Assembly (NCBI RefSeq): GCF_018687575.1 | Contig: NZ_CP061297.1 | Coordinates: 558,001 to 622,000, forward strand | DNA length: 64,000 nucleotides | From: Polynucleobacter asymbioticus | GTDB taxonomy: Bacteria; Pseudomonadota; Gammaproteobacteria; Burkholderiales; Burkholderiaceae | Direction: 5' to 3' | In this document: in pieces, positions 14,612-51,000 of the stretch | Numbering within the stretch: the first letter of the stretch is position 1 | Layout: every line of letters begins with the position of its first letter | Position numbers and translations under genes: made by a program | The notes under the pieces: generated by a model | Seen by the model: only the letters and a program-made list of their open reading frames with translations | Database searches by the model: none | What the model was told of the DNA's origin: nothing

Positions 14612-14700
14612 GCCCGAGTGGTGAAATCGGTAGACACAGCAGATTTAAAATCTGCCGACTCAAAAAAGTCGTGCCGGTTCGATTCCGGCCTCGGGCACCA
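14612..14700 (+). tRNA. tRNA-Leu (anticodon TAA), CCA encoded
   Basis: The acceptor stem GCCCGAG pairs with CTCGGGC, and the D-loop contains GGTAGACA. The anticodon loop is centred on TAA within AGATTTAAAATCT. A long variable arm (class II) and the T-arm GGTTCGATTCC follow. The sequence ends in discriminator A and an encoded CCA at 14698-14700. Its last 14 bases recur exactly at 23295-23308, marking it as the probable integration site of the downstream island. Confidence 0.97.
14687..14700 (+). repeat. Putative attachment-site copy 1 (tRNA 3' end)
   Basis: GGCCTCGGGCACCA, the end of tRNA-Leu including CCA. It is identical to 23295-23308 in direct orientation. Flanking bases differ on both sides apart from scattered matches. 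Confidence 0.65.
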
Positions 14701-14704
14701 TAGT

Positions 14705-14745
14705 AAAACCCTGTAAGCCAACAGGGAGTAGCGTAGCGGGTTTTC
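14705..14745 (+). terminator. Terminator of tRNA-Leu with alternative hairpins
   Basis: AAAACCC at 14705-14711 pairs with GGGTTTT at 14738-14744, giving a stem that ends in T4. A competing inner hairpin CCCTGT/ACAGGG lies at 14709-14726. It is a likely intrinsic terminator, just inside the left end of the island. Confidence 0.6.
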
Positions 14746-14828
14746 ACCCTACCTTGATTTAGATAGAAATTAGATAGATCTAAATGAGTGGTAACCAAGC
14801 CTCCGTAAGAAATAACCAGGAGACGCAT

Positions 14829-14873
14829 GTGAAATTCAAATCACTGCTTCTAGTGGTTTGTTTTATTGCTTAA
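14829..14873 (+). pseudogene. Orphan signal-peptide fragment, probably start of a broken exported-protein gene
   Basis: A GTG start with a strong AGGAG ribosome site 9 bp upstream reads M-K-F-K-S-L-L-L-V-V-C-F-I-A and then TAA. The peptide has the positive N-terminus and hydrophobic core of a signal peptide but stops before any cleavage site. The downstream reading frame at 14933 is out of phase and lacks a signal. I read both as pieces of one exported-protein gene broken by a nonsense change and at least one frameshift. A regulatory 14-residue leader peptide is the alternative. Confidence 0.4.
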
Positions 14874-14932
14874 GAGGGACCAGCTTTTGAGCTGCTATTA
14901 GCTACATTTGCTAGAAAGCGCGATCCAACTAC

Positions 14933-15325
14933 ATGCCTCACTACACCACATTCGATGTCAATCCGGCAGTGCAGTCCACACAAGTCATGACCGTGCCACA
15001 GGCATCCGAGCCTAAGCCACCAACAGTATCTTATTCTCAAATAGATCAAGCACAAGCTCGAATAGATACCACATCTTCCCAAATTGAAGGCGCCAAAATT
15101 CAAGCTGGAACACAAGGCGTTAATCAAGCCCAGCAATTGGCTGAGCAATTAAGGCAATCTGCGAGTTCAGTAGCGCAGGATATGAGCTCGATGATTAGTT
15201 CTACTAGAGCTGCCGCAGAAATGCCAAATGCTAATGATTCAGCAGCTACCGCGCAAAGCTACAACATGGATCAGTCTCCAAAAACTGGTATTGACGCAAC
15301 ACCACCGCTGCCAACAGCAAAGTAG
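14933..15325 (+). CDS. Hypothetical protein, probably remnant of a disrupted exported protein
   Basis: A 130-residue reading frame of low complexity. It has a Pro/Val-rich N-terminus, a central Gln/Ala-rich helical stretch (residues 36-95) of coiled-coil character, and a Pro-rich end with P-P-L-P. No family recognised. The ATG has no ribosome site, and an in-frame TAG lies seven codons upstream. A well-formed signal peptide with a good ribosome site lies about 100 bp upstream in another frame. It precedes the TolC-family gene and shares the small, Pro-rich, low-complexity style of the exported proteins farther down the island. Likely inactive as it stands. Confidence 0.4.
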   Translation: MPHYTTFDVNPAVQSTQVMTVPQASEPKPPTVSYSQIDQAQARIDTTSSQIEGAKIQAGTQGVNQAQQLAEQLRQSASSVAQDMSSMISSTRAAAEMPNANDSAATAQSYNMDQSPKTGIDATPPLPTAK

Positions 15326-15490
15326 AGGGTAGTGGGGGCTCAACTTAGTTGCACCCCCTCCGTGTGGCAAGTTATCGGCTAAACCCGCTTGATAACGACT
15401 TCATTGCACGCCTGGCTATATGCCGGGCTCTAGCTTGTCGGTCATGCGTGATAATGGGCTTATTCCCAATTCGTTTAAATATGCTGATTT

Positions 15491-16717
15491 ATGCGCACAC
15501 CATTAATTCGTTTATCCGCCGCACTTGGCGCATCGCTAATTTCCAGTGTTTCACTGGCTCAATCGTCGGCTTCTGGATTGAATGAGTACACTCCTATTCC
15601 CTTGGCGCAATATCTGCAAGTTGTTAAAGAAAACAATGCAATTATTGGCAATAAGAGACTTGGCAAAGAAACAGCAGCTGCCATTAAAGAATCACTGGCC
15701 CTTTATCAATTTAGACCAAGTGTTAGTTATACAAAGGGCACTTTCTATCAACAGGTTCCTTACACTCCATATTCAACCCCTACATCCAATACCTATGGCG
15801 TCAACTTCAATTTAGAAGGCTGGGGGAAAAGGTCTGCTAGGTCTGAGTATGGTGATGCTGAAATTGGTAGAAGTGAAACTGATTACCAGGCTACCGAAGC
15901 CGACGTTCAAACTGTTGCAACTCTGGGCTATGTAGATGCCTTAAGAAATCGTTTACTGTTTAACTCCTACGCTAAGGCAGCAAAAAGAATATCTACACTG
16001 CCAGCTAATGCACAAACAAAAGATTCAGCTCAATTCTTACAGTATTACGAAAACGCAAGCGCTAAGGATCTGCAATTTACCTCCCTGAGCCTTTTGAACT
16101 ACTCCGGTGGCGCCTTAAAGAATCTGCCGCTACCTATTGGTAACCTCAATGTTGCCCCACAGGCGTTTGATCCAGATAAGTTAATCAACCAAGCGCTGAA
16201 TAGTCGCTCTGACATATTGGCCTTGCAGGCAGCTATGAACTCAGCCGAGAAAAACATCAGCATGACCAAGGCTAATCGCAATTGGGATGTGATGCCCTAT
16301 GTTTCATACACCACAACACCTCAATATGATTCAAGTGGATATACCTACGCCCCGCAAAATGGTTTTTCTGCTGGCATACAAATACCGCTCCCAGTAAGTA
16401 ACTTTTTACAAAATGCCGATATTGTTCAGGCGGCCAATCAAAAGCTAGGCATTGAAATGCAGTTGCGTGATCTCAAGGAGCAGGTTCGTGTGCAGGTCAT
16501 GCAGGCCTTGTTGCAGTACGAGTCTGCAAAGCAAATATTGGCGCAGGCGAATGATGGTTTGAATGGCGTTTCAAAAACTGCTAATCAATCAAGTGCAAAA
16601 GGCGTAATGGATGTGCGCGACAAAGAGGGCGCTTTAATTGATGCCCAGACAAATCATGTCAAGGCCCTGGTTAATATTTGGCGTCAATCTGGAAACTACA
16701 GCATGCCTCCACTATGA
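15491..16717 (+). CDS. TolC-family outer-membrane protein
   Basis: A 408-residue protein with a signal peptide ending S-L-A-Q near residue 24. It has the two-repeat layout of outer-membrane efflux proteins: a helical segment I-P-L-A-Q-Y-L-Q-V-V-K-E-N-N near residue 38, beta strands with P-S-V-S-Y-T-K-G, and a second repeat starting L-I-N-Q-A-L-N-S-R-S-D-I-L-A-L near residue 231. It is shorter than typical TolC (450-490) but otherwise complete. TolC proteins form exit ducts for type I secretion or efflux, but no periplasmic adaptor or inner-membrane pump is adjacent. The stop overlaps the next gene's start (ATGA), so the two are coupled. Confidence 0.85.
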   Translation: MRTPLIRLSAALGASLISSVSLAQSSASGLNEYTPIPLAQYLQVVKENNAIIGNKRLGKETAAAIKESLALYQFRPSVSYTKGTFYQQVPYTPYSTPTSNTYGVNFNLEGWGKRSARSEYGDAEIGRSETDYQATEADVQTVATLGYVDALRNRLLFNSYAKAAKRISTLPANAQTKDSAQFLQYYENASAKDLQFTSLSLLNYSGGALKNLPLPIGNLNVAPQAFDPDKLINQALNSRSDILALQAAMNSAEKNISMTKANRNWDVMPYVSYTTTPQYDSSGYTYAPQNGFSAGIQIPLPVSNFLQNADIVQAANQKLGIEMQLRDLKEQVRVQVMQALLQYESAKQILAQANDGLNGVSKTANQSSAKGVMDVRDKEGALIDAQTNHVKALVNIWRQSGNYSMPPL

Positions 16718-18129
16718 GAAAACTTATAGTTCAATTTCTCATAGTGGCCTTGTTCTCGTTAAATAGTTATGCGGGCCCATTGGTCGATAGAAATCGCCCA
16801 GACATCAGGCCAGGGCAGAGAGGATCGATTGCACAGAATGCGCTGGGATCGAACCATGATCAGTACTCCATCCTAAATCCCGGCTCCAATCAGTCTGTCT
16901 TTGTGCGCAACAACATTCTCTTGCAGCAGCAGTATGGAAATAATGCCAATACAAACGGTTACCTGACTTTCAATCCACAAAGCTCTTTGCTTGGCAGTGG
17001 AGCTACCGCCTCCCTTGATGCAATGGCAAAACATTTATTGGAAACAAATGGTGGCAATGCGCAGGCCAATAGAGTTACTCCTTCCCCATTTGCATCAAAG
17101 GTTGCAAAAAGCCAAACACAAGGGATTATTTTTTTGACTCAGGACTCTCAATCCTATGTAAGAGCATCGAAGGAGTCGTTACCTTTCCCAGAGATCCAAA
17201 ATCTTCCTGGGCTGACTATGATCCCATATATTTTTGCTTCGATTGCGCTTATTGACACGGGATTGTTCGCGCCAATTGGTGCGTCTATGTTGGTTGCTAG
17301 TGCTATAAGTATTTTGGAGTCGGGCAATATTCAAAGAGCAAAAATTATCCAGAAAAAACTAAGCTCTCCTGAGCAGGATAAGGCTCAATTGGAGGCGGTG
17401 AATCTGGTTGCAAAGGATATGGCTGACAAGGGGATTCCTTCTTCAGAGGCAAAAAAAATTGCACCTGCATTAATTGCAATTGCATTAGTTTTAAATTTAG
17501 AGCAAGCTAAATTGGGTCAAGGTGATAAAGAGGGTATTTATACGAGTTTGCAAACGTCATGCCCTGATTGCTCAATTGAGGAGGTAAAAAGTACCTTCTT
17601 AATTGCCCAAAACTTAGTCAGCAAGAATCCTGCGATGTGGCTTAGGAGTGACCAGTTAGAGGCTGCCGTCTCCCAGGTATTCAGTTCAGATTATGGTGTC
17701 GTTGCCCCAGTAGTTTCAGATGAGTCTGGAAAAAGAAACTTGTCTAATGTTGTATTGGCGAGACCATCATCAAAAAATATACAGAACGAAATCCCATCAG
17801 AGAAGCCGCCCAATATTAAGTCAAGCATGCAGAGTGGGTATAAGGCTCGGCATTCTGATGTCGGAGATCAAGGCATAAGTACTGCATTTGTTTATGCAGT
17901 TAATGCCATTGAAATTGCGGTTGGTAAGGCTACTGACGATCCAGTATTAGTTGGAGCTGGCGTCGTAGGCATCCTAACGACAGCTGGTTCAAGCCCTAAT
18001 CAGGAGAGAGTTGCCGTAAGCGGTGGCGCCAATACTTCTATAGACCCAGTCGCCACCACAAATTCACTGACTACACCCATTCCACCGCAACAGAACTCTA
18101 ACGAATCCACGCCTAGGGTAAGTAAATGA
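16714..18129 (+). CDS. Exported protein of unknown function coupled to TolC
   Basis: A 471-residue protein starting at the ATG that overlaps the TolC stop. The signal peptide ends S-Y-A-G near residue 22. Residues 23-110 are Asn/Gln/Gly-rich (L-Q-Q-Q-Y-G-N-N-A-N-T-N-G). A hydrophobic stretch around residues 170-205 could be a membrane segment. The middle is helical with a C-P-D-C pair near residue 287, and the C-terminal 100 residues are Ser/Thr/Pro-rich. No family recognised. Coupling on both sides (TolC upstream, a small exported protein downstream through ATGA at 18126) points to a shared function, perhaps as the periplasmic partner of the TolC duct. Confidence 0.7.
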   Translation: MRKLIVQFLIVALFSLNSYAGPLVDRNRPDIRPGQRGSIAQNALGSNHDQYSILNPGSNQSVFVRNNILLQQQYGNNANTNGYLTFNPQSSLLGSGATASLDAMAKHLLETNGGNAQANRVTPSPFASKVAKSQTQGIIFLTQDSQSYVRASKESLPFPEIQNLPGLTMIPYIFASIALIDTGLFAPIGASMLVASAISILESGNIQRAKIIQKKLSSPEQDKAQLEAVNLVAKDMADKGIPSSEAKKIAPALIAIALVLNLEQAKLGQGDKEGIYTSLQTSCPDCSIEEVKSTFLIAQNLVSKNPAMWLRSDQLEAAVSQVFSSDYGVVAPVVSDESGKRNLSNVVLARPSSKNIQNEIPSEKPPNIKSSMQSGYKARHSDVGDQGISTAFVYAVNAIEIAVGKATDDPVLVGAGVVGILTTAGSSPNQERVAVSGGANTSIDPVATTNSLTTPIPPQQNSNESTPRVSK

Positions 18130-19037
18130 AAACAAACCTCTTAATCACCTCATTGGGCTTAATAGCAACATCTGTTTATGCTCAGCCATCAGTACCCTCT
18201 GTTGGTGTGCCACCTCCAACTGTCAGAGCAGAGATGCCCGGCCAAGGTATGCCATCTATGCCCCAGCCACAAATGACACCAACAATTCCAAATCATGGGG
18301 GACGTCCTCCACTTCCTTCTCAAGCCCTCCCTCAACCAATGCCACAAATGAATCAAAGTGGTCCACAGCCTGCTGTCGGAGCTACTGGCGGCACTGGTGG
18401 TAATGGTGGAAATGGCGGCTTAATAATTGGCACTGGTGGTACTGGTGGTGCTGGTGCAACACCAAAGTCTGCGAATGATGTAAAGGCTCCAGCTAGTGTT
18501 GGCGTTAGCTTAAACGAAACGCAGGCTAGGGCTGAGGCTCAGAAGGCTAAGAGTGAGGCTCAGGATGTGGCTCAGAAGGCTCTGGCTAGGGCTGGTGCAA
18601 GTGCTGGCACTGGTGTTCATGCTGGTAATGTTGGTGCTACTGGTGTTACAACACCAATGCCTCCATTGCCCGGCAATGATGCAAAAGGTCCAACTAGTGT
18701 TGGTGATACTGGTCTTGCAACACTACTGGCCAGAGGAGTAGGGCCGACGCCTTTGAAAAATGACGATGTTGGAACTGGTTTTATTGTCACGAACCCTCCC
18801 CTGATCACGACTGTTGTCGTGAGTTTTACGGTTTCTAGGATAACTTCAAAGATAGCTGAGGCTGCGGCTAAGGCTCAGAAGCTTGAAAAAGCAGCGGAAG
18901 GTCCAACTCCTGTTGGCGCTACTGGTGTTTCAACACCAATGCCTCCAATTCCTGGCAATGATGCAAAAGGCCCAACTAGTGTTGGTGTTGACATTGACTA
19001 TAACGATATAGTTATGAGATTGGTTCCGCAAATATGA
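18126..19037 (+). CDS. Gly/Pro-rich exported protein with three P-T-S-V-G boxes
   Basis: A 303-residue exported protein that opens the island's small-protein family. The signal ends V-Y-A near residue 20 and the mature part begins Q-P-S-V-P. A Pro/Met-rich segment follows, then a glycine tract (G-G-T-G-G-N-G-G-N-G-G) near residues 90-115. The box N-D-x-K-x-P-x-S-V-G occurs three times (near residues 116, 179 and 278), the last two preceded by M-P-P-[LI]-P-G, which indicates internal duplication. Between them lie Ala/Lys-rich helical segments. It overlaps the upstream gene by 4 bp and the next gene by 4 bp. Function unknown. Confidence 0.7.
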   Translation: MKTNLLITSLGLIATSVYAQPSVPSVGVPPPTVRAEMPGQGMPSMPQPQMTPTIPNHGGRPPLPSQALPQPMPQMNQSGPQPAVGATGGTGGNGGNGGLIIGTGGTGGAGATPKSANDVKAPASVGVSLNETQARAEAQKAKSEAQDVAQKALARAGASAGTGVHAGNVGATGVTTPMPPLPGNDAKGPTSVGDTGLATLLARGVGPTPLKNDDVGTGFIVTNPPLITTVVVSFTVSRITSKIAEAAAKAQKLEKAAEGPTPVGATGVSTPMPPIPGNDAKGPTSVGVDIDYNDIVMRLVPQI

Positions 19038-19966
19038 TGCAAAAACTCCTACTAGTGCTGGGGCTGGTCGCCTCGTTGGGCATGTTGGCAACATCTGCAT
19101 ATGCTCAGCCATCAATGTCTGCTGGTGCATCACCATCAGTTAATAGGCCTGAAGTCTCTCGTCAGCTGGCCCCATCAATGCCAAGCCCATCAGGGTCAAT
19201 GGGTAGTCCACAGCCTGCTGCTGGCGCTACTAGTGGTGAGGGTGTTGCTAAACCCTCCATCGTTGCCCCGAGTCTCGGTGAAATTAATGGCAGGATTCCA
19301 CCTTTGCCTCCGCTTCCACCGACATCAACACCAGCAGTTAAGCTTGTAAATCCTCGCACTGGTGAAGTAGCCAGTGAAATCAAGGCATCCGGAGAAGGAA
19401 AGGGTGCAATTAAGGCGGCAGCTGCAGGGGCGTCTGGTTCACAAGCTAATGCAAGGCCACCTTTGTCCGATAGCCAGGCTGGCAATAGTGGGGTGTCGCT
19501 AAGTGATAAGAAAGATATTCAGAGTGTTGGTTCAACTCAATCTAAATCACAAGGCATGCTTTCTCGTCCCGCATATATTATTCCTATGACACCCGGCAAA
19601 GTTGTTTTTTCAATAGCTGGTGCTGATGGCTTATTTCACGGCCCCGGCGTATTGCATTCCAATAATGAAGTTGGTGCTAGCGCCCCGAGCCAAGAGAAGA
19701 TTCAACAGCGACAAGAGAAGGTTGTGCAGCTACAGCAGGAGAGAGGGGTAGTTCAAGAGGAGAGAGCGCTGATTGAGCAGAAGAGAGCGCCTATTGAGCA
19801 GAAGAGAGCGCCGCGTGAGCAACATAGAGAGGAAAAAAAAGAAGAGATTGAGTGGAATATGCAGATGTACGGTCGTCCATTTGACATTGACATATTTACA
19901 ACTTGGGCTGTATGTATTCATCCTCCGGGGCCTATTGATTGGGATACTTTGTACCACGATCAATGA
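19034..19966 (+). CDS. Exported family protein with heptad-repeat C-terminus
   Basis: A 310-residue exported protein. The signal ends A-Y-A near residue 24, and the mature N-terminus Q-P-S-M-S-A-G-A-S-P-S-V-N-R-P-E-V-S-R is the family signature. The Pro/Ser-rich middle is followed by a charged coiled-coil region (residues 215-275) containing three tandem 7-residue units of the type R-A-x-x-E-Q-K (19763-19825). The final 35 residues are unlike the rest and include Cys, Trp and P-G-P-I-D-W, suggesting a small folded end domain. No P-T-S-V-G box is seen. Coupled to the upstream gene by 4 bp. Confidence 0.65.
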   Translation: MMQKLLLVLGLVASLGMLATSAYAQPSMSAGASPSVNRPEVSRQLAPSMPSPSGSMGSPQPAAGATSGEGVAKPSIVAPSLGEINGRIPPLPPLPPTSTPAVKLVNPRTGEVASEIKASGEGKGAIKAAAAGASGSQANARPPLSDSQAGNSGVSLSDKKDIQSVGSTQSKSQGMLSRPAYIIPMTPGKVVFSIAGADGLFHGPGVLHSNNEVGASAPSQEKIQQRQEKVVQLQQERGVVQEERALIEQKRAPIEQKRAPREQHREEKKEEIEWNMQMYGRPFDIDIFTTWAVCIHPPGPIDWDTLYHDQ

Positions 19967-20072
19967 GTCAAAATAGTTTTGCAAGAGCATCTTTTTTAAC
20001 GCAGGAGTTGCAGACCCCTCATCAATAGCATTGCTAGCTGCAGTAATTTAATAAGTCTTACTAGAAAATCAA

Positions 20073-20723
20073 ATGAAATCAAAACTCCTAATCACCTCAT
20101 TGAGCCTAATAGCAACATCTGCTTATGCTCAGCCATCAATACCTGCTGGTGTTTCACCACCAGTCAATAGACCTGAAGTGTCTCGTGGGGTAGAGCCATC
20201 AATGACTCAATCAGCTATGCCAAGACCAATGCAGTCCAATCAAGTTTCAAGCAGCGTAGGCGCAGTGCCGGTCACCCCTCAGACGATGAATAAGCTTGAA
20301 GGTGCTACCCAAAAAGCGCAAAGCGCACAGCAGGTGTACGCCAAAAAAGTTAATGAGGTAAAGAGAGGTATAGAAAGCAAAGGGTATGAAGTTACTACGG
20401 TTGTGCAGCGTGGTGGAGGTCCTAAATCCCATGCAGGTAGTTATTACATAGTAGGGCCAGATGGAGGCTACGTTGAAGTTAGCACCAGTACCAAAGATGA
20501 TGTGATTGGGAATACTGTGACAAAAACCATTGAGGTTTATAAGCCAGGCCAAAGTAATGGCGAAGGTGTAGTCATTGAGTTAGCCCATCCTGATGCAAAG
20601 GTTGCAATACTCGCTGAGTCAGATGTGACTCCAAGCGCTGAATCGGTAAAGGCTGGTTTAAAGGTTATATCTAGAGAGCAAGAAAACATTGTAAGAGTGG
20701 TTACTCCACCCATAACGCAATAA
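20073..20723 (+). CDS. Exported family protein with basic/charged C-terminal domain
   Basis: A 216-residue exported protein with the family leader (M-K-S-K-L-L-I-T-S-L-S-L-I-A) and mature start Q-P-S-I-P-A-G-V-S-P-P-V-N-R-P-E-V-S-R. After residue 70 it diverges into a mixed alpha/beta segment with G-P-D-G-G-Y-V-E-V and a Val-rich end. There is no glycine tract and no P-T-S-V-G box. It is separated from its neighbours by about 106 and 36 bp, so it is not coupled like the first genes. No fold recognised for the C-terminal part. It shows that the shared N-terminus is attached to different C-terminal bodies. Confidence 0.65.
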   Translation: MKSKLLITSLSLIATSAYAQPSIPAGVSPPVNRPEVSRGVEPSMTQSAMPRPMQSNQVSSSVGAVPVTPQTMNKLEGATQKAQSAQQVYAKKVNEVKRGIESKGYEVTTVVQRGGGPKSHAGSYYIVGPDGGYVEVSTSTKDDVIGNTVTKTIEVYKPGQSNGEGVVIELAHPDAKVAILAESDVTPSAESVKAGLKVISREQENIVRVVTPPITQ

Positions 20724-20759
20724 TACTTTGAGCGAATCCTTAAGGAATAGGGCAAAAAA

Positions 20760-21134
20760 ATGAAAACAAAAATCTTAATCAGCTCTTTGAGCCTAATAGC
20801 AGCATCTGTTAATGCTCAGCCATCAATACCTGCTGGTGCATCACCAGTTAATAAGCCTGAAGTGTCTCGTCCAGCAACACCATCTATACCTCAACCAGCA
20901 ATGCAAAGACCAGCGCCACAGCCTGCTGTTGGAGCTACTGGTGGAAATGGTGGGAACAGCGGCTTGATGATTGGTAACGGTGGTAATGGTGGTAATAGTG
21001 CGAGACCAGCCCCACCATCTACTATCTCCAGCGGTCCATTACCTGCGAATAATGCAAAAGCTCCAACTAGTGTTGGCGACGATGTCGTACCCCCACCTCC
21101 ACTATATCCACCACCTCCACCACCACCTTATTAG
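20760..21134 (+). CDS. Small Gly/Pro-rich exported family protein with polyproline end
   Basis: A 124-residue family member with leader, Q-P-S-I-P-A-G mature start, P-A-P-Q-P-A-V-G-A-T-G-G linker, a glycine/asparagine tract (G-N-G-G-N) and the box N-N-A-K-A-P-T-S-V-G near residue 100. It ends in an unusual polyproline tail (P-P-P-P-x-Y-P then six Pro and Y). Its central 116 bp are nearly identical to those of the gene at 21924, so one copied or converted the other recently. The 3' end overlaps by a few bases the antisense integrase relic, which may have supplied or truncated the tail. Confidence 0.65.
   Translation: MKTKILISSLSLIAASVNAQPSIPAGASPVNKPEVSRPATPSIPQPAMQRPAPQPAVGATGGNGGNSGLMIGNGGNGGNSARPAPPSTISSGPLPANNAKAPTSVGDDVVPPPPLYPPPPPPPY
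20961..21076 (+). repeat. 116-bp near-identical repeat, copy 1
   Basis: Matches 22131-22246 in direct orientation with a single difference (T at 20990, C at 22160). It encodes the glycine tract and the P-T-S-V-G box of two family members. Confidence 0.9.
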
Positions 21135-21325
21135 GGGAAAAGCATTTTTGGTTTAGGTGCCGTCCAAACCTTATTTTCAAGGTCAATTTGCTTCCAAGTT
21201 GCTGAGCTTACTGAGTCAGAGTGAACGGCAGTAAGGATTAAGAATTCCATTGCTTTGAAAGCCTCTCGGTTGAAAGCAAATATTTCACTGGGAATAGCTT
21301 GATAAGATAAGGTAATTACAGGAAA
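21131..21325 (-). pseudogene. P4-type tyrosine integrase, internal fragment
   Basis: The minus strand encodes about 60 residues ending at TAA (21131-21133). They align by eye with the start of the catalytic domain of P4-type integrases: S-Y-Q-A-I-P, then M-E-F-L-I-L-T-A-V-H-S-D-S-V, then A-T-W-K-Q-I-D-L-E-N-K-V-W-T-A-P. In active enzymes the middle reads L-T-A-x-R-S-G-E, with the Arg catalytic; here that Arg is His. There is no start codon, no N-terminal DNA-binding part and no C-terminal H-x-x-R/Tyr. It is a relic, fitting the tRNA-Leu attachment repeats. Confidence 0.65.
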
Positions 21326-21328
21326 AAA

Positions 21329-21808
21329 ATGAAAACAAAAATCTTAATCAGCTCTTTGAGTCTAATTGCAGCATCTGCATATGCTCAGCCATCAATACCT
21401 GCTGGTGTATCACCACCAGTTAATAGACCTGAAGTTTCTCGTCCAGCAATGCAATCTATGCCTCAAGTGGGATCAGCGGCTAAACCGCTCTCAGGGCCCG
21501 CTCTTAATGCCGCGGTTCCTGTAATGGAAAGTAGGATTGTTCCTTTTACAGGTAATGACGCAACTAACTCCGTGAGCGCAGGAGCCTCCGGTTTAGTTGG
21601 TGGCGTTAGTGGTAGTGGTGGGGATGGTAGTCGCGGCGGAAATGTTACAACACCAAAACCTCCGTCAACTATGTACAGCGGAGTTGGCCCATTGCCTGCG
21701 AATGATGCAAAAGCTCCAACTAGTGTTGGTGCTACTGAAAGAGAATACGCGCTTTTCATGGGGGCTGAGATAGTATTGGAGCAAAAAATAATAAATGTTG
21801 TTGATTAA
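21329..21808 (+). CDS. Small Gly/Pro-rich exported family protein
   Basis: A 159-residue family member with the leader ending A-Y-A, then Q-P-S-I-P-A-G-V-S-P-P-V-N-R-P-E-V-S-R. A Gly/Ser tract (G-G-V-S-G-S-G-G-D-G-S) lies around residues 90-105. The box N-D-A-K-A-P-T-S-V-G-A-T lies near residue 133. It ends in a short amphipathic helix with acidic residues. A ribosome site (acagga) precedes the ATG, and it is followed by its own intrinsic terminator at 21863-21882. Function unknown. Confidence 0.65.
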   Translation: MKTKILISSLSLIAASAYAQPSIPAGVSPPVNRPEVSRPAMQSMPQVGSAAKPLSGPALNAAVPVMESRIVPFTGNDATNSVSAGASGLVGGVSGSGGDGSRGGNVTTPKPPSTMYSGVGPLPANDAKAPTSVGATEREYALFMGAEIVLEQKIINVVD

Positions 21809-21862
21809 GCTGTTGATACGCAGCTTACTTACACAGGCGATCACTTTACAGGGGATTAAGAG

Positions 21863-21882
21863 ACCTGCTTCGGCAGGTTTTA
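21863..21882 (+). terminator. Rho-independent terminator (ACCTGC-TTCG-GCAGGT)
   Basis: A 6-bp GC-rich stem with a TTCG tetraloop, followed by T4. The same stem-loop recurs at 22406-22427. Confidence 0.8.
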
Positions 21883-21923
21883 ATACAAATCTAATTGTCA
21901 AAACTTAAGGAATAGGAGAAAAA

Positions 21924-22352
21924 ATGAAATCAAAACTTTTAATCGCTTCATTGGGCCTAGTGGCAGCATCAGCTTATGCTCAGCCATCAATACCAGCTGG
22001 TGGCGCGTCACCATCAGTCAATAGACCTGAAGTATCGCCAACATCTATGCCTCAACCAGCAATGCAAAGACCAGCGCCACAGCCTGCTGTTGGAGCGACT
22101 GGCGGTAATGGTGGTAACGGTGGTAATGGGGGCTTGATGATTGGTAACGGTGGTAATGGCGGTAATAGTGCGAGACCAGCCCCACCATCTACTATCTCCA
22201 GCGGTCCATTACCTGCGAATAATGCAAAAGCTCCAACTAGTGTTGGGTCTATGAGTGAGGCTCAGGCTGAGTCTTTGAAGGAAATTCAGACCCAGCAGCA
22301 ATTGGCACTCCAATCATTGAGTTTGGCAAATGAAACTGAGCAAGGAAAATGA
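21924..22352 (+). CDS. Small Gly/Pro-rich exported family protein with helical tail
   Basis: A 142-residue family member: leader, Q-P-S-I-P-A-G-G-A-S-P-S-V-N-R-P-E-V, then P-A-P-Q-P-A-V-G-A-T-G-G, a long glycine/asparagine tract and N-N-A-K-A-P-T-S-V-G. The helical tail includes L-K-E-I-Q-T-Q-Q-Q-L-A-L-Q-S-L-S. A closely similar tail ends the inverted gene at 22572-23048, linking that gene to the family. An aggaga ribosome site lies upstream and an intrinsic terminator downstream at 22406-22427. No known function. Confidence 0.68.
   Translation: MKSKLLIASLGLVAASAYAQPSIPAGGASPSVNRPEVSPTSMPQPAMQRPAPQPAVGATGGNGGNGGNGGLMIGNGGNGGNSARPAPPSTISSGPLPANNAKAPTSVGSMSEAQAESLKEIQTQQQLALQSLSLANETEQGK
22131..22246 (+). 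repeat. 116-bp near-identical repeat, copy 2
   Basis: Direct repeat of 20961-21076 with one mismatch. The flanking coding sequence upstream is also very similar, with insertions of GGT-AAT units in the glycine tract. Confidence 0.9.
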
Positions 22353-22405
22353 TGCAGTATCAACGGTGTTAATAGTTGCTCAAGTGCCAAGAGAAATAAT
22401 GAGAG

Positions 22406-22427
22406 ACCTGCTTCGGCAGGTTTTTTT
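22406..22427 (+). terminator. Rho-independent terminator, same stem-loop as at 21863
   Basis: ACCTGC, TTCG, GCAGGT and a run of seven T. Also preceded by GAG like the copy at 21863. Strong intrinsic terminator. Confidence 0.88.
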
Positions 22428-22571
22428 GTAGGTGAAGAGCCTCTATTTGCTTAGTAAATACCACCCGTTCAAAAGCTTAAATCTTTCCTATATTGTAGAG
22501 CGCAAGGCAGGATCACAATTACCTGCAAGAGGGTTTACAAAGTTGATGGGTTAGAAAAGCAAAATTGGGGG

Positions 22572-23048
22572 CTACTTATCAGTAGCAGTGATTACGTTGG
22601 AGCTAGAACTATTTGCAATCGATAACGACTGAATGGCAAGCTGTTGCTGGGTTTGCAGCGCTTTTAATTTAGTGGATTCTTCCTCCATATTGGCATCAAT
22701 TAAAGATCCCACGCCAACATCCTTGACTTCACTTAGAGTCGTAGCTTTCGTAGAGGTGGTGTTTGGATTTTGCTGGGGCGTACTAGAGGCTGCGGAAGAT
22801 GTTGTTGAATATGATGCTGGCTTGTAAGACTCCAATTGCTCTTTTTTTTGTGTGGGTGCGGGTGCATAAGTTCCGGCAGCATTATTTTGTTTATTGGGTA
22901 GAGAGGTTTGCCCAATATTATTTTGGCTTGCTGATCCAGGGGTTGAGCTAATGGCGCCCATGGAGCTACTTGGATGCAAAGGTTGGGCGTAACTCAAAGG
23001 TGAGAGGATGGCTATTGATAATGAGTGGATTAAAAATATTTTCTTCAT
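22572..23048 (-). CDS. Exported Ser/Thr/Gln-rich protein sharing the family tail
   Basis: A 158-residue exported protein in the opposite orientation to the rest of the cluster. The signal ends S-Y-A near residue 21 and the mature part begins Q-P-L-H-P. The middle is a Ser/Thr/Asn/Gln-rich, probably unfolded linker. Residues 125-150 are helical with L-K-A-L-Q-T-Q-Q-Q-L-A-I-Q-S-L-S, nearly the same as the tail of the 21924 gene. It lacks the glycine tract and the P-T-S-V-G box. I infer a divergent member of the same exported system. Function unknown. Confidence 0.6.
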   Translation of the reverse strand: MKKIFLIHSLSIAILSPLSYAQPLHPSSSMGAISSTPGSASQNNIGQTSLPNKQNNAAGTYAPAPTQKKEQLESYKPASYSTTSSAASSTPQQNPNTTSTKATTLSEVKDVGVGSLIDANMEEESTKLKALQTQQQLAIQSLSIANSSSSNVITATDK

Positions 23049-23080
23049 GGCATCTCCCAGAGTTTTCGCTTAAGTTTAAT

Positions 23081-23317
23081 CTGACTATAACCAATCAAAA
23101 TACCACTGTCAATGCTTGGTCCCAAGGTAGCGGAGCCACCATCCCAGCTGCCAGTCAGTCTGAATATCTGGCACAGAAAGGAAATGCTATAGATGGCTTA
23201 GGGTATCTTGATTTTGTTGCATGGGCTAAATCGCTGTGTACAATGGGTCAATGTGTATATGGCTTTGAGGGCCGAATCAGTCTGGGGATATGCTGGCCTC
23301 GGGCACCAATCGATTGA
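23081..23317 (+). pseudogene. Coding remnant at the right end of the island
   Basis: An open frame of about 78 codons reads like real protein (S-E-Y-L-A-Q-K-G-N-A-I-D-G-L-G-Y-L-D-F, then C-T-M-G-Q-C-V-Y-G-F-E-G-R) but has no ATG, GTG or TTG with a ribosome site outside the neighbouring minus-strand gene. Its last codons are made by the attachment repeat (W-P-R-A-P-I-D). I read it as a gene truncated at its 5' end, possibly joined to the host junction at integration. Family not recognised. Confidence 0.35.
23295..23308 (+). repeat. Putative attachment-site copy 2
   Basis: Exact 14-bp copy of the tRNA-Leu 3' end (14687-14700) in the same orientation, with no tRNA body attached. A chance 14-bp match within about 9 kb is unlikely. 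Confidence 0.65.
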
Positions 23318-23329
23318 TTTCAGGCATTC

Positions 23330-23776
23330 TTGAAATACCTCCATCTCCTTTTCTTGCTTTTATTTGCCACCCCCAGTTTGGCTGTGGAACCCCTGGTGTT
23401 TATTTGCGAGCGTTCAGAAAAGAATTACACCGAAACCTATGAGTTCAAAGTCGTTCCCGCTTCAAAAAATCAGAAAGCTAAAGTCTTTTTTGATAATCGA
23501 GATTTAGATCGGTCGAATGAGTTGGGCAAACAAACCGTGAAGAATGTGTTGATCACCGAACCTACAGTCCTTGTGTCAATAGAGGCGCATTTCCCACCAG
23601 AGATTTTTGATGGCGTGCAATATGGAGCTGGTTTGGTTACCACGGCGATTGTGATTAATCGCTCAACTGGTCAGCTTAGAAAAGCGGAGACCGTAAAAGG
23701 TGGAATTCTCTCTGCAACCCTTGGTGAGGGTACGAAGACTTATCAAGAGCAATGCGCTGCTACTAACAAGCCTTAA
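23330..23776 (+). CDS. Small exported protein of unknown function
   Basis: A 148-residue protein with signal peptide M-K-Y-L-H-L-L-F-L-L-L-F-A-T-P-S-L-A. The start is TTG at 23330, preceded by a weak CAGG; no in-frame ATG precedes the signal. The mature protein is a mixed beta protein with two cysteines (I-C-E-R-S near residue 26 and E-Q-C-A near the end), probably disulfide-bonded in the periplasm. No family recognised. It begins 21 bp beyond the right attachment repeat, so it may be the first host gene after the island. It converges with exbD, overlapping by 4 bp. Confidence 0.65.
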   Translation: MKYLHLLFLLLFATPSLAVEPLVFICERSEKNYTETYEFKVVPASKNQKAKVFFDNRDLDRSNELGKQTVKNVLITEPTVLVSIEAHFPPEIFDGVQYGAGLVTTAIVINRSTGQLRKAETVKGGILSATLGEGTKTYQEQCAATNKP

Positions 23777-24186
23777 TTAGGCTCAGTGACAAACCCCAGT
23801 TTTGTTAAGCCAGCGCGACGTGATGCGGCTAATACCTGAGCAACATATTCATACTTCACAGATTTATCAGCGCGTAAATTGATTTCTGGTTGCGGCTCCT
23901 TTTGAGCTGCTTTTTCTGCATAGCCATCAAAAGTCTTTAAATCAATCGGTGTGCTATTCCAAAATATTTGACCCTGAGCATCAATCGAGAGTTGAACTGA
24001 CTCTGGCTTGACCTCATTGCGCACGCTATTAGCCTTAGGCAATTCAACCTTTACCGCTTGTTGAATCACTGGCAAGGTAATGATGAAAATAATTAAGAGC
24101 ACCAACATGACATCCACCATCGGAGTCATATTGATTTCAGCCATGATGCCGCTTTCTTCTTGATCGTTCTGAAGATTAAAAGACAT
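23773..24186 (-). CDS. exbD: Biopolymer transport protein ExbD
   Basis: A 137-residue ExbD/TolR-family protein. A short cytoplasmic N-terminus is followed by M-A-E-I-N-M-T-P-M-V-D-V-M-L-V-L-L-I-I-F, whose single membrane helix carries the essential proton-coupling Asp. The periplasmic domain follows, with L-R-A-D-K-S-V-K-Y. With ExbB it energises TonB using the proton gradient. Third gene of tonB-exbB-exbD, 2 bp after exbB. Confidence 0.93.
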   Translation of the reverse strand: MSFNLQNDQEESGIMAEINMTPMVDVMLVLLIIFIITLPVIQQAVKVELPKANSVRNEVKPESVQLSIDAQGQIFWNSTPIDLKTFDGYAEKAAQKEPQPEINLRADKSVKYEYVAQVLAASRRAGLTKLGFVTEPN

Positions 24187-24188
24187 AT

Positions 24189-24881
24189 TTATTCTCCAGA
24201 TTTCACACGGGCACCAGTTGCAAAGTAAGCGAGGAGATCATTGCCAAAGCGATTGAGGTCAGCGATCAATAATTTATTGGCGCGATTAATGGCATTAAAT
24301 CCCAGTACGGCTGGAATCGCTACCGCCAAACCTAAGGCAGTCATGATGAGCGCTTCACCAATTGGACCGGCGACTTGATCAATCTGGGCGCTACCTGAGC
24401 TACTAATGGCAATCAAAGCGTGATAGATACCCCATACCGTTCCAAACAGACCGACAAAGGGTGATATTGCGCCAGTAGAGCCCAAGAAGGTAAGTCCTTT
24501 TTGGAATTGCGCTGCTACACCATCAATGCTGTTCTTGAGACTTCTTGCCATCCACTCGGAGTAATTCAGCGTTTGCAGAAGCTCGCGATGGTTGGTGGAT
24601 TGACTTTGATGGTGGATGGAGGCGCTACTTGCTGCCTTAGCAACGTGATAGTAGGGATTACTTGCATGATTCGTGAATGCGTTCAGACCTTGATCATATG
24701 AGGTGGCACGCCAAAATTGATCTATTTCTACCTTCAATTTATTCAGAGTGCGCAAATCCCAAAAGCGTGACAGGATGATGACCCAGGTTACAACAGAGCA
24801 AGTGAGCAGGATGATTGCTACAAAGCGGGTAACCGCATCGCCTTCAAGCCATAAATTGGCTAATCCAAATGGTGTATTCAT
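24189..24881 (-). CDS. exbB: Biopolymer transport protein ExbB (MotA/TolQ/ExbB family)
   Basis: A 230-residue inner-membrane channel protein with three membrane helices (near residues 15-37, 130-160 and 175-200). It has the diagnostic G-L-F-G-T-V-W-G-I-Y-H-A-L and the G-P-I-G-E-A-L-I-M-T-A-L-G-L-A-V-A-I-P-A segment. It forms the pentameric ring around ExbD. Tight spacing (5 bp after tonB, 2 bp before exbD) makes a single operon. Confidence 0.95.
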   Translation of the reverse strand: MNTPFGLANLWLEGDAVTRFVAIILLTCSVVTWVIILSRFWDLRTLNKLKVEIDQFWRATSYDQGLNAFTNHASNPYYHVAKAASSASIHHQSQSTNHRELLQTLNYSEWMARSLKNSIDGVAAQFQKGLTFLGSTGAISPFVGLFGTVWGIYHALIAISSSGSAQIDQVAGPIGEALIMTALGLAVAIPAVLGFNAINRANKLLIADLNRFGNDLLAYFATGARVKSGE

Positions 24882-24886
24882 AATAG

Positions 24887-25579
24887 TTAATTCTTTAAAT
24901 TGAATTTAATTAAAAGGTTGGTAGAAATTCTTTGAGGCGAACCATTTACGAGAAATGGCTTAAAGCGATAGCGACGACCAATCTCTGTTGCTGCACGATC
25001 TAATCTTGGAAAGGAGCTGGAGCGTAATAAAGCTACATCTTCAACATTCCCTGACTCATCAATAATCAATCTCACCACTACTTCACCTTGCTCCCCAGAT
25101 CTTTTTGAGAAAGAAGGGTAGTAAGCATCGGCATCAGGCTGATATACGACAACCAGTTTACCAATGTCAGTCTGAATCGGTGTGCCGCTAGACCCGGAGG
25201 TCGTGGCAGGCGCAACAGTGGCATTGGGTGCTTGGGATTCGCTTTTGGACTGCGGTGTTGGTGGAGTTGCTGCCTGTTGCTGGGTTTGTGGTGGGCTTGG
25301 CGCTTGGGTGGATTTCTCATCCACAGTTTTCTTCTTTTGCTCTTGCTTGGGTTTTGGCGGGGGTGCGGCTGGAGTAGCTTGAGGCTGCTTAGCGGCCTCA
25401 GGACTTACAAGATTAGCCATGACTCGTGCATCGTCAAGATTATTTTCATGATCGGGTTTCATGCCACTCTGAAAACCAATTAAAAATAGTAGGTGTAATG
25501 CAATGACGATGCCGATGATGATCCGCTCGGTTTTATCGAAGGGTAGACGCGCATTCATTTGACTTAAGAAGGTGCTCAT
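24887..25579 (-). CDS. tonB: Energy transducer TonB
   Basis: A 230-residue TonB. An N-terminal membrane anchor lies at residues 21-38, followed by a long Pro/Lys/Gln-rich periplasmic spacer (P-P-P-K-P-K-Q-E-Q-K-K-K) and a C-terminal TonB fold from about residue 150 with Y-P-S-F-S-K-R-S-G-E-Q-G-E-V-V-V-R and F-K-P-F-L-V-N-G. It links the ExbBD motor to outer-membrane receptors. No TonB-dependent receptor lies in the window. Its start overlaps the murI stop by 4 bp, so it may be transcribed through from murI. Confidence 0.93.
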   Translation of the reverse strand: MSTFLSQMNARLPFDKTERIIIGIVIALHLLFLIGFQSGMKPDHENNLDDARVMANLVSPEAAKQPQATPAAPPPKPKQEQKKKTVDEKSTQAPSPPQTQQQAATPPTPQSKSESQAPNATVAPATTSGSSGTPIQTDIGKLVVVYQPDADAYYPSFSKRSGEQGEVVVRLIIDESGNVEDVALLRSSSFPRLDRAATEIGRRYRFKPFLVNGSPQRISTNLLIKFNLKN

Positions 25580-48085: not shown

Positions 48086-51000
48086 TTGAAAAATTCTGTA
48101 ACAAAAATTCTCGATCAGTTTGCATTTTCGTTTGCAAAAACGAAGGGGATTTTTGTCGTCAAAAAATCACAAATCTTTGCTGGATTTTTGGTTCTTAGCC
48201 AATGCAATTTCGTAGTCGCACAGACTGCTGCAAATGCACTCCCAACTGGTGGAAATGTTGTTGCTGGAAGCGCCACAATTTCGCAGACTCAAACAGCGAA
48301 TTCAGCGACGATGAACATCAATCAAACTTCACAACGCGCAGTTGTGAATTGGGATAGTTTTAACGTTGGCAAAAATGCCCAAGTCAATTTCAATCAACCA
48401 AATGCACAAGCAGTTACTCTCAATCGCGTAACAAGCGCTAGCGCATCGATGATCGATGGTGCAGTGCGGGCAAATGGACAAGTTGTACTAGTTAATCCAA
48501 ACGGTGTGACCTTTGGTAAGGGCGCCGATATCAATGCAGCTGCTGTAGTTGCCACCACCATGAACATCGCAAATAAAGATTTCATGGAGGGAAAATCGAC
48601 CTATAAAGGCAATGGAAAAGGGGCGGTCGTAAATGAGGGAAAAATCAGCGTAAATGACCCTAACGGATACATCGCTCTTTTGGCCCCAGAAATTCGTAAT
48701 GAAGGCTACCTTTTGGCCCGAAAAGGACCCAATAATGGGGTGGCATTAGCGGCAGGTGAGCAAATTACCCTCGATTTCCGGGGTGACCAGCTGATTTCAG
48801 TCAATGTAGACAAGGCAACCTACGGTGCCCTGATTGAAAATAAGCGGGTTATCGAGGTTAAAGGGGGTCTGATTGTGGTGGCCGCCGGATCCGCTAACCA
48901 GCTCATGGGATCCGTTATTAAGAACACAGGTCGTATTTCAGCATCCACCATGGTGAACAACGGCGGCGTTATCGAATTAGTCGCTGCTAACGTGACTCAG
49001 GCCGGTACAGTGGCTGCAAATGGCAAGGGAACCAATTCCAAGGGTGGTCAGGTCAATATCGTTGGTGAGAACATCACCTTGGCCCAAGACTCCAAAACTA
49101 CAGCTACCGGTAAAGCGGGTGGCGGCAATATTGAGATTGGTCTAGGTAGAACTCAGGCCACTAACGTAAATCAAGCGCCAGTTCAGGCTGTTGCTCAAGC
49201 TGCTGCTCCATTGGCTGCGGCAACTACTGTCGAAGAACGTCAAACTGCTATCAAGCAGGTTGCTGCTGTTGCAAGTGAATCTAAGCAATTGGCAAAAACA
49301 GTCAGCGTTGAAGCAAATGCAAAAGTAAATACATCTGCAACACAAAATGGTGATGCTGGAAACATTGCAATTTGGTCAGAAGTAAAAACCACAGTTAATG
49401 GAATTCTCAAAGCAGTAGGCGGAGCACTTGGTGGTAATGGTGGCTTTATTGAAACCAGCTCTAAAGGAAGTGTCGTTCTTGGTAAGCAATTTACTGTTGA
49501 TACCAGTGCAACAAATAAAACTTCTGGCAAGTCTGGATTGTGGTTCTTAGACCCGATTGATTTGATCATTGACTCTAGCGCTGCGAATGTCATTTCTGCT
49601 GCGCTCTCACGTAACAACGTCACCATTGAAGTGAATGGCAATGTTTGCCCAAGCCTTGGCAGCTGTACACAGAACGGTAGTGGCAGCCTGACTATTGCTA
49701 GTGGCGCAGACATTCTGAAGCAGGGCAATACGCTGACAACATTGAAATTAAATTCTTCAGGAATCTTTAATCTCAATGCAAATATTTCTGGTGAAAATCT
49801 CAACGTCATCATCAACAGTTCAATTGCATTCTTGAACGTGGGCACAACGATTAGTGCATCGCAAGTAACCGTACAAGCGCAAACAATTTATGCGAACGGC
49901 ACGATCAATGCGTATGGTGTGAGTGGTGTATCAACACCATTAGGTGCAGCGATTCAATTGCTTGCACAAGTACTCTATGTTTCTGGAAGATTGAATGTTG
50001 CGAGCAATGTAAATACAAGCAACAACACAAACACGAGCACAAATACAAACACAAACAGAAACACAATTACCTATAACGGTAGTGTGATTCGTGAAGAAGA
50101 CTTGCCAACGTTCTTAACTGCGCAAAATAATTCAAGCAACAACGCAAACAACGCAAACAACGTAACAAATTCACTCGAAGTGGTGTATTCAAGCACTGCT
50201 GCGAACGATGCAGTAGCAGATCGCATCAATACGCAGACCAATGTCATCTATTTGAATGCAGTAAATGACATCACTCTCTATAGCATTGCAGAAATCAAGG
50301 CAAATGGCACCACTGGTGGCTATGTCAACATCACTGCACAAGCTTTGAATGCACAAAGTGGTTCACTCATACAAGCCAACGGCAACAACGGCCCCGGTGG
50401 CGTTATCAACATAACAACTAGTGATGTCCACCTCTCAGGAGCGATCAGTGCCAATGGCGCAAACGGTGGCTCTTTTGTGCTTTCTGCTCAAAACGCCCAA
50501 ATTGATGATCAAGCAGTCATTCAAACCAATGGCTCGAACGGCCCTGGAGGCACCATATCTATTGATATTTCACAAGATATTTATTTTGTCAATAGTGGTT
50601 TATACGCAAATGGCAGCACAGACGGTGGAAGCATCCGCATCCTCAGTCGCGCAGGGAATTTAAGTCTCTTCGACTCATTAATTCAGACCAACGGCTCAAA
50701 CGGCCGCGGCGGAAGCATTCAGCTTTCCGCAAACAATGGCAGCACCAGCATCTCTAGCGCCCTCGAATCTAGCGGCGCCACCCAAGGCGGCAACATTCTC
50801 ATCACCGCCAACAACATTACCCTAGAAAACAACGCAAATATCTTTGCAACAGGTAACACTGGCGGCGGAACTGTGCTCGTGGGTGGCGATTGGCAAGGCA
50901 CTAACGGTGTATATCAAGCAACTACAGTCACGATGAACCAAGGTGCAGTGATTAATGCAAGCGCATTGATCAATGGTGATGGCGGTAAGGTGGTTCTCTG

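Follow-up and report, generated by a model that had tools for sequence, protein, structure and literature searches.

The usual view of TolC-type outer-membrane ducts is that they form the passive end of pumps. Type I secretion substrates lack an N-terminal leader, heat-stable enterotoxin-type export proceeds by Sec and then by exit of a periplasmic intermediate through the general TolC, and curli and Fap combine small, low-complexity Sec-exported proteins with a dedicated outer-membrane pore. In the Aat system, as set out in the available part of its description (PMC7943197), the small Sec-exported proteins dispersin/Aap or CexE are placed on the surface via a dedicated TolC homologue, AatA, in a process that requires the adaptor AatB, AatC, AatP and the acyltransferase AatD, which acts on the N-terminal glycine. 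The Aat/dispersin system is the closest analogue of the locus considered here, which lies in a 64,000-nucleotide (nt) stretch of the Polynucleobacter asymbioticus genome (NCBI RefSeq assembly GCF_018687575.1, contig NZ_CP061297.1, positions 558,001 to 622,000; hereafter the window), part of a single 1.84-Mb contig. The window carries an island at a tRNA-Leu(TAA) gene, in which a TolC-like gene is followed by the gene for a 471-amino-acid (aa) exported partner and by a series of genes for small exported proteins. We give an even chance to the reading that this is a mobile, lineage-specific export module, in which surface or released proteins would travel by Sec and then through a TolC-type duct. 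The titles and abstract openings found on TolC, efflux, secretion and islands in Polynucleobacter, mostly from outside subscription journals, do not describe such a module. If the reading is true, a TolC subfamily tied to an exported protein and not to a pump would amount to a second way of opening or using TolC ducts, encoded by a few genes open to experiment in freshwater bacteria that are in culture, and tail variation together with island mobility would show by what means surface or secreted proteins are diversified in abundant planktonic bacteria.

The pairing of the duct gene with an exported-protein gene extends well beyond the window. All 25 genomes carrying the TolC-like subfamily were fetched, giving 26 loci (G095 has two), and at every one of them the next same-strand gene encodes a leader-bearing protein, of 471 residues in the window and of 99-216 residues elsewhere; throughout, leaders, A-x-A cleavage sites, low complexity and gene neighbourhoods are readings by eye. 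Relative to the TolC stop, the called start of this partner gene ranges from −29 to +27 nt and is −4 in seven loci, the two starts at −29 being the first in-frame starts and probably too far upstream. Two partner types occur, namely relatives of the 471-residue protein at eight loci and low-complexity proteins with a common C-terminal motif at the other 18. A model of the 471-type partner, built from the same eight loci that it recovers, matches eight of 186 genus genomes, every match adjoining TolC, and the motif S-x-x-Q-G-x-x-F is kept in 8/8 aligned proteins. The window's partner consists of a conserved N-terminal region of ~145 aa ending in SQTQGIIF and a ~300-aa part with hydrophobic stretches; it has no Pfam match, and the first scan of genome contigs returned nothing for the partner. 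The idea of a fixed 471-residue component had to be given up, as the partner measures 124-199 aa at the seven other loci and the window's protein carries the ~300-residue part as an insert. The 18 low-complexity partners have little in common save their C-terminal end, with P-[T/S]-D in 13 of them; a looser C-terminal motif is found in 18/18 against 0.28 expected after shuffling, a post hoc figure from a pattern written on the same sequences. In a tree of 25 TolC-like rows there is a single change of partner type (shuffled mean 6.3), the tree splitting exactly by partner type; it omits the interrupted copy of G147, and two long rows, L032 and L082, are unsurely placed.

The duct protein itself belongs to the OEP family (Pfam PF02321, 67 bits against a cut-off of 22). 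Its AlphaFold2 (AF2) model, with a predicted local distance difference test score of 85.9 and a predicted template modelling score of 0.74, resembles Escherichia coli TolC (1ek9) by Foldseek with an E-value of 4.1e-15, TolC being first among 42 chains at E <=0.001 that comprise TolC and other outer-membrane factors; the predicted structure shows the strands and two long helix hairpins of the TolC fold. A sequence profile of the same protein retrieved no PDB chain at 0.001. With a 14-row model at E 1e-30 the subfamily was found in 25 of 186 genus genomes. Among 299 genomes sampled from the family it was present, at 1e-20, in ten, all Polynucleobacter, with none in 24 other genera, and a class sample of 369 genomes contained it only in the window's own genome. 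A pattern scan of named contigs gave ten loci, five from Polynucleobacter, two labelled as Burkholderiaceae metagenome-assembled genome (MAG) and three from uncultured beta proteobacterium MAG sequences (two from one MAG), and the TolC relatives with an organism name at source are Polynucleobacter. In the samples searched, the subfamily has thus been seen only in this genus. The TolC-like gene is under purifying selection, with ratios of nonsynonymous to synonymous substitution rates (dN/dS) of 0.092 (against G082), 0.094 and 0.076 in three pairs, two of which are saturated (dS near 2). For the N-terminal domain of the partner, dN/dS is 0.20 in one pair and was not computable in another.

Within the island the genes are arranged as follows.
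14612..14700, + strand: tRNA-Leu(TAA), the integration site (ARAGORN; Rfam tRNA).
14687-14700: left attachment (att) copy GGCCTCGGGCACCA, the last 14 bp of tRNA-Leu(TAA) (exact repeat).
14933..15325, + strand: 130-aa frame, perhaps a remnant of a small exported protein gene, judging from its sequence.
15491..16717, + strand: TolC-like outer-membrane duct protein, 408 aa (Pfam OEP 2.4e-18; AF2/Foldseek).
16714..18129, + strand: 471-aa exported partner, ATGA overlap with the TolC-like gene.
18126..19037, + strand: 303-aa exported protein with two exact P-T-S-V-G boxes, one degenerate box and a Gly tract (ATGA overlap).
19034..19966, + strand: 310-aa exported protein with the shared head, no box (ATGA overlap).
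20073..20723, + strand: 216-aa exported protein with the shared head and its own tail, no box.
20760..21134, + strand: 124-aa exported protein with a box, a Gly tract and a poly-Pro tail.
21329..21808, + strand: 159-aa exported protein with a box.
21924..22352, + strand: 142-aa exported protein with a box and a Gly tract.
22572..23048, − strand: 158-aa leader protein with a flagellin C-terminal region at residues ~82-154 (Pfam Flagellin_C over cut-off).
23295..23308, + strand: right att copy GGCCTCGGGCACCA, an exact match to the 3' 14 bp of tRNA-Leu(TAA).

As the first-pass annotation had described, ATGA overlaps at 16714, 18126 and 19034 link the first four genes (TolC-like, 471, 303 and 310 aa), relatives of 216, 124, 159 and 142 aa follow the chain, and the interval 15491..23048 contains neither an ABC transporter nor an adaptor gene; the last gene of that interval lies on the opposite strand and does not encode a box protein. 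The 4-bp overlaps joining TolC, partner and small protein are present again in G173, and further leader-bearing small genes stand near TolC at all eight loci of this partner type, by reading. The only Pfam matches over cut-off in the island are OEP and Flagellin_C. Just upstream of the 130-aa frame, a leader-like frame resembling the small-protein leaders of L078 ends in a stop.

The head claimed to be shared by five of the small proteins is borne out for the leader and the mature N-terminus, with small deviations in the motifs: QPSIPAG occurs in four of the five and QPSMSAG in the 310-aa protein, and NRPEVSR is exact in three, with NKPEVSR in the 124-aa and NRPEVSP in the 142-aa protein. Boxes of the form N-x-A-K-x-P-T-S-V-G are likewise present in four proteins as claimed, five being exact (two in the 303-aa and one each in the 124-, 159- and 142-aa proteins), and the 303-aa protein has an additional degenerate box, NDVKAPASVG. 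The 310-, 216- and 158-aa proteins, three of the seven small exported proteins of the island, carry none. At the DNA level the shared parts appear as repeats of 140 nt (five copies) and 101 nt (six copies) and a 46-nt box family with seven members. Neither the partner nor the P-T-S-V-G proteins match a described family over cut-off, in keeping with their supposed novelty, which is qualified by PGRS matches below threshold in the 124- and 142-aa proteins; for the 216-aa protein even the best PDB match, at E 0.52, is unconvincing.

A model of ten small proteins, whose rows come from the very genomes that it finds, matches three of the 186 genomes (the window's, G082 and G173), all of which have TolC and the partner, so that the co-occurrence predicted earlier is upheld. 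By the same count the box was rejected as a general signal for the duct, the small-protein family being absent by this search from 22 of the 25 TolC genomes and the island itself containing boxless proteins. The family rests on these three genomes and on metagenome proteins without context. Searching the protein database with the 142-residue protein gives 25 matching proteins, the window's own among them; their ends differ widely, and simple patterns find the N-terminal motif in 22, the glycine tract in 17 and the box in 11, the last pattern missing variants such as APANV. Partner and small proteins have only the leader in common by profile comparison, so the link between them consists of P0154, a fusion of the partner N-domain with a glycine tract and a box, and P0152, the end of which resembles the small proteins P0137 and P0140. 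Because of this fusion and this tail, modules appear to move between the partner and the small proteins. Gene pairing, leaders as sequence features, module sharing and island insertion are direct observations.

The proposal of a dedicated duct for small surface or released proteins stands as far as the genes go, TolC and an exported protein occurring without an adaptor or pump gene at 26/26 loci, and export through the duct is inferred. It is unlikely, in our view, that the protein is instead an ordinary exit duct serving an HlyD-type pump of the genome in trans, the neighbouring genes encoding periplasmic or surface proteins and being linked to it by co-transcription only. The predicted fold is that of a plain TolC, and the same genome has five further OEP genes, four of which lie beside an HlyD adaptor gene and the fifth of which, L117, has no adjoining adaptor (by eye), as is the case for the island's TolC-like gene. 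Against this explanation stand the pairing with an exported protein at every locus and at several genomic sites, the split of the TolC tree by partner type, and the helix tips. According to the available part of one source (PMC3391258), adaptor tips bind the TolC barrel tip. A glycine (x-x-G-x) stands at each periplasmic helix tip in 4/5 ordinary OEP proteins and in 0/19 subfamily rows, in a MAFFT alignment read by eye with six near-duplicate subfamily rows left out. In the adaptor-linked OEP protein L119 the tip 1 glycine is missing and that of tip 2 is shifted, so the tip feature is not decisive. Two tip sequence patterns were discarded after failing their controls, one missing all controls and the other matching 24/25 subfamily rows elsewhere. 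When the four HlyD adaptors and one ABC protein of the genome were compared by phmmer with 467 frames of 100+ aa from the 26 loci, the only hit was the ABC protein itself, in L027, ~4 kb from TolC; the HlyD proteins recover each other in 10/12 cross pairs, and the search used single sequences and loci of 4.8-19 kb (4.8 kb at L083; 5-34 kb of the window), so that very divergent adaptors would escape it.

OEP membership by Pfam and the predicted fold are shared with type I secretion and tripartite efflux; unlike these, the loci yielded no HlyD adaptor or pump gene, and in contrast to type I substrates the island's exported proteins carry Sec-type N-terminal leaders. The heat-stable enterotoxin route differs in that duct, partner and presumed substrates here form one cassette, and curli and Fap differ in that the pore here has a predicted TolC fold, with no curli or Fap (CsgG, FapF) Pfam match in the island proteins. 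As regards Aat, none of AatB, AatC, AatP and AatD turned up in the parts of the 26 loci that were read, where no Aat profiles were run and beyond which the genomes were not searched. By eye, the window's small proteins begin with Q-P after A-x-A and not with glycine, and the mature partner begins with G in the window and with S in G082.

A different role for the partner is suggested by the lipoprotein YbjP, which, according to the available part of its description (PMC13082787), has a DUF3828 domain and binds the periplasmic surface of E. coli TolC. The partner could similarly be a structural companion of the duct only, the small proteins not passing through it, which we regard as distinctly unlikely. 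One exported protein is the only component that accompanies TolC at all loci, and the P-T-S-V-G family is present in only three of the 25 TolC genomes, as would be expected of such a companion. However, the window's partner has no Pfam match and hence no DUF3828, its leader and those of the other partners have no convincing lipobox (the closest, by eye, is LFGC in L080), and the modules common to partner and small proteins in P0154 and P0152 suggest that both are cargo-like.

The varied tails invite a further explanation, in which a constant exported head delivers polymorphic antagonistic effectors released against competitors or grazers. The tails include the hydrophobic part of the partner, flagellin-like, ubiquitin-like and other ends, a conserved N-terminus with variable C-termini is seen among 13 partner and 25 small proteins (the window's included), and the island is mobile. 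Polymorphic toxin systems are recognised by a C-terminal toxin domain with an immunity gene; a scan of the island proteins and of partner relatives revealed no toxin family or known toxin domain, no immunity gene is obvious and there is no PADLOC or PHROG match, which leaves this explanation very unlikely.

The flagellin-like end is clearest in the 158-aa protein (22572-23048), which matches NCBIfam flagellin at 4.2e-16 over its C-terminal part, below the model's full-length cut-off, and PDB flagellin A at 1.1e-13. Its C-terminus is identical at 33/43 positions to the tail of Flagellin A (7sn9); a flagellin end is here carried on a leader-bearing protein, the only Flagellin_C match in the genome, and a search of the other 185 genus genomes gave no relative. 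The last residues of the 142-aa protein are weakly flagellin-like (NCBIfam flagellin E 0.01; PDB flagellin A E 0.056). Among metagenomic relatives of the 471-aa partner (P0148-P0158), the end segment of P0148 is identical to the ubiquitin N-terminus at 12/15 positions. The sequence QIFIKTLQGKTITL or a close variant is found at or near the end of 9/13 proteins of the 471-aa partner group by pattern, the window's own being counted, and in a tenth, P0151, by eye. Single-stretch PDB E-values of about 0.0003-0.03 make the ubiquitin-like ends of the partner relatives suggestive only, and the window's 471-aa protein has no such end.

If the locus is an export module, a TolC-type duct would be made together with an obligate leader-bearing partner and, in the window's branch, with small proteins that likewise bear a leader and combine a constant head (leader, QPSxPAG...NRPEVSR, often a Gly tract and a box) with variable tails. 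Sec would take partner and small proteins across the inner membrane, with removal of the leader at A-x-A, as their sequence features, read by eye, suggest. The partner N-domain with S-x-x-Q-G-x-x-F may then stand in for a pump adaptor by binding or gating the duct's periplasmic mouth, a role that the C-terminal P-T-D...Y...S-P-T motif might take in the other branch, and the small proteins would go out through the duct, to remain on the surface or be released from it, their tails being the variable part there. The fuller version, in which a dedicated exported partner opens the duct without pump or adaptor and releases Sec-delivered, tail-swapping proteins from a tRNA-inserted cassette diversified by capture (for instance of a flagellin C-terminus), is tentative and on the doubtful side. 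Folding or assembly outside the cell, as is thought for curli, offers an analogy for what might drive transport. The ExbD, ExbB and TonB genes at 23773-25579 (Pfam) are not favoured as an energy source because they fall beyond the island limits, and because in relatives with the empty site (L093, L098) ExbB/ExbD-like frames are again found flanking the 148-aa gene that starts at 23330.

Several points weigh against an export module. Transport, localisation and binding all rest on inference, no energy source for transport is evident, and the leader calls were made by eye. The co-occurrence models were trained on their own loci and therefore test for extra unlinked copies without giving independent support; some small proteins are boxless, and G082 has a second pair of P-T-S-V-G genes (L147 5318-7170) ~195 kb from TolC, beside tRNA-Met. 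No homology was detected between the two branches' partner types (hhalign probability 0.9%), and in G147 the TolC-like frame (L027 7125-8350) is interrupted while its partner gene is open. The OEP proteins L117 and L119 count on the same side, the former as a precedent for a duct without a neighbouring adaptor, with a pump possible in trans.

The mobility of the module is observed directly in this genome, where it moved into tRNA-Leu. Positions 14701-23308 are an 8,608-bp insertion at the tRNA gene, because the tRNA end is repeated at 23295-23308 and the site is uninterrupted in 13 relatives. Empty sites were sought with the 148-aa gene starting at 23330 as anchor, which was found in 50 of 81 genus genomes, and 30 loci were available; in 13 of them the tRNA 3' end joins ATCGATTGA directly, the sequence that follows the window's right copy. 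Of the remaining 17 anchor loci, comparison of four that have a tRNA-Leu in the vicinity showed a different junction, one is that of the window itself and 12 were left without base-level comparison. The gene cluster outlined earlier, 15491..23048, is real, and the limits of the island around it had been overlooked. No integrase-like gene was noticed in the island, by eye and Pfam. At 45.9%, its G+C content is near the 46.6% of the remainder of the window, in keeping with a source of like composition. That Polynucleobacter species exchange genomic islands is described in the available part of an earlier study (PMC5644125). A phage origin was rejected (no PHROG match and no relative among viral contigs), as were a plasmid origin (a single weak TolC match in 72,556 records) and a defence system (no PADLOC match).

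Sites vary among the eight loci of the window's partner type, with tRNA-Leu(TAA) in the window, tRNA-Leu(CAG) at L025 and L080, and no tRNA in the stretch read at the other five. The setting of the 18-locus branch resembles that of a locus fixed long ago: at 14/18 loci TolC is preceded by a same-strand alpha/beta hydrolase gene (at L039 a contig end cuts it; Pfam in this branch was run on one locus and one hydrolase only), and tRNA-Asp, -Glu and -Ala are close by at 12/18. Loci of this branch (L028-L031, L033-L039, L076, L077, L083-L085) mostly have in their vicinity a DUF4118 gene, a glutamyl-tRNA synthetase-like gene and tRNA genes. Elsewhere in the window, an open frame of 5,305 codons (48086-64000, + strand) runs off the window end and represents a giant gene; a giant gene region is a replacement island in P. 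asymbioticus according to the available part of the same study (PMC5644125).

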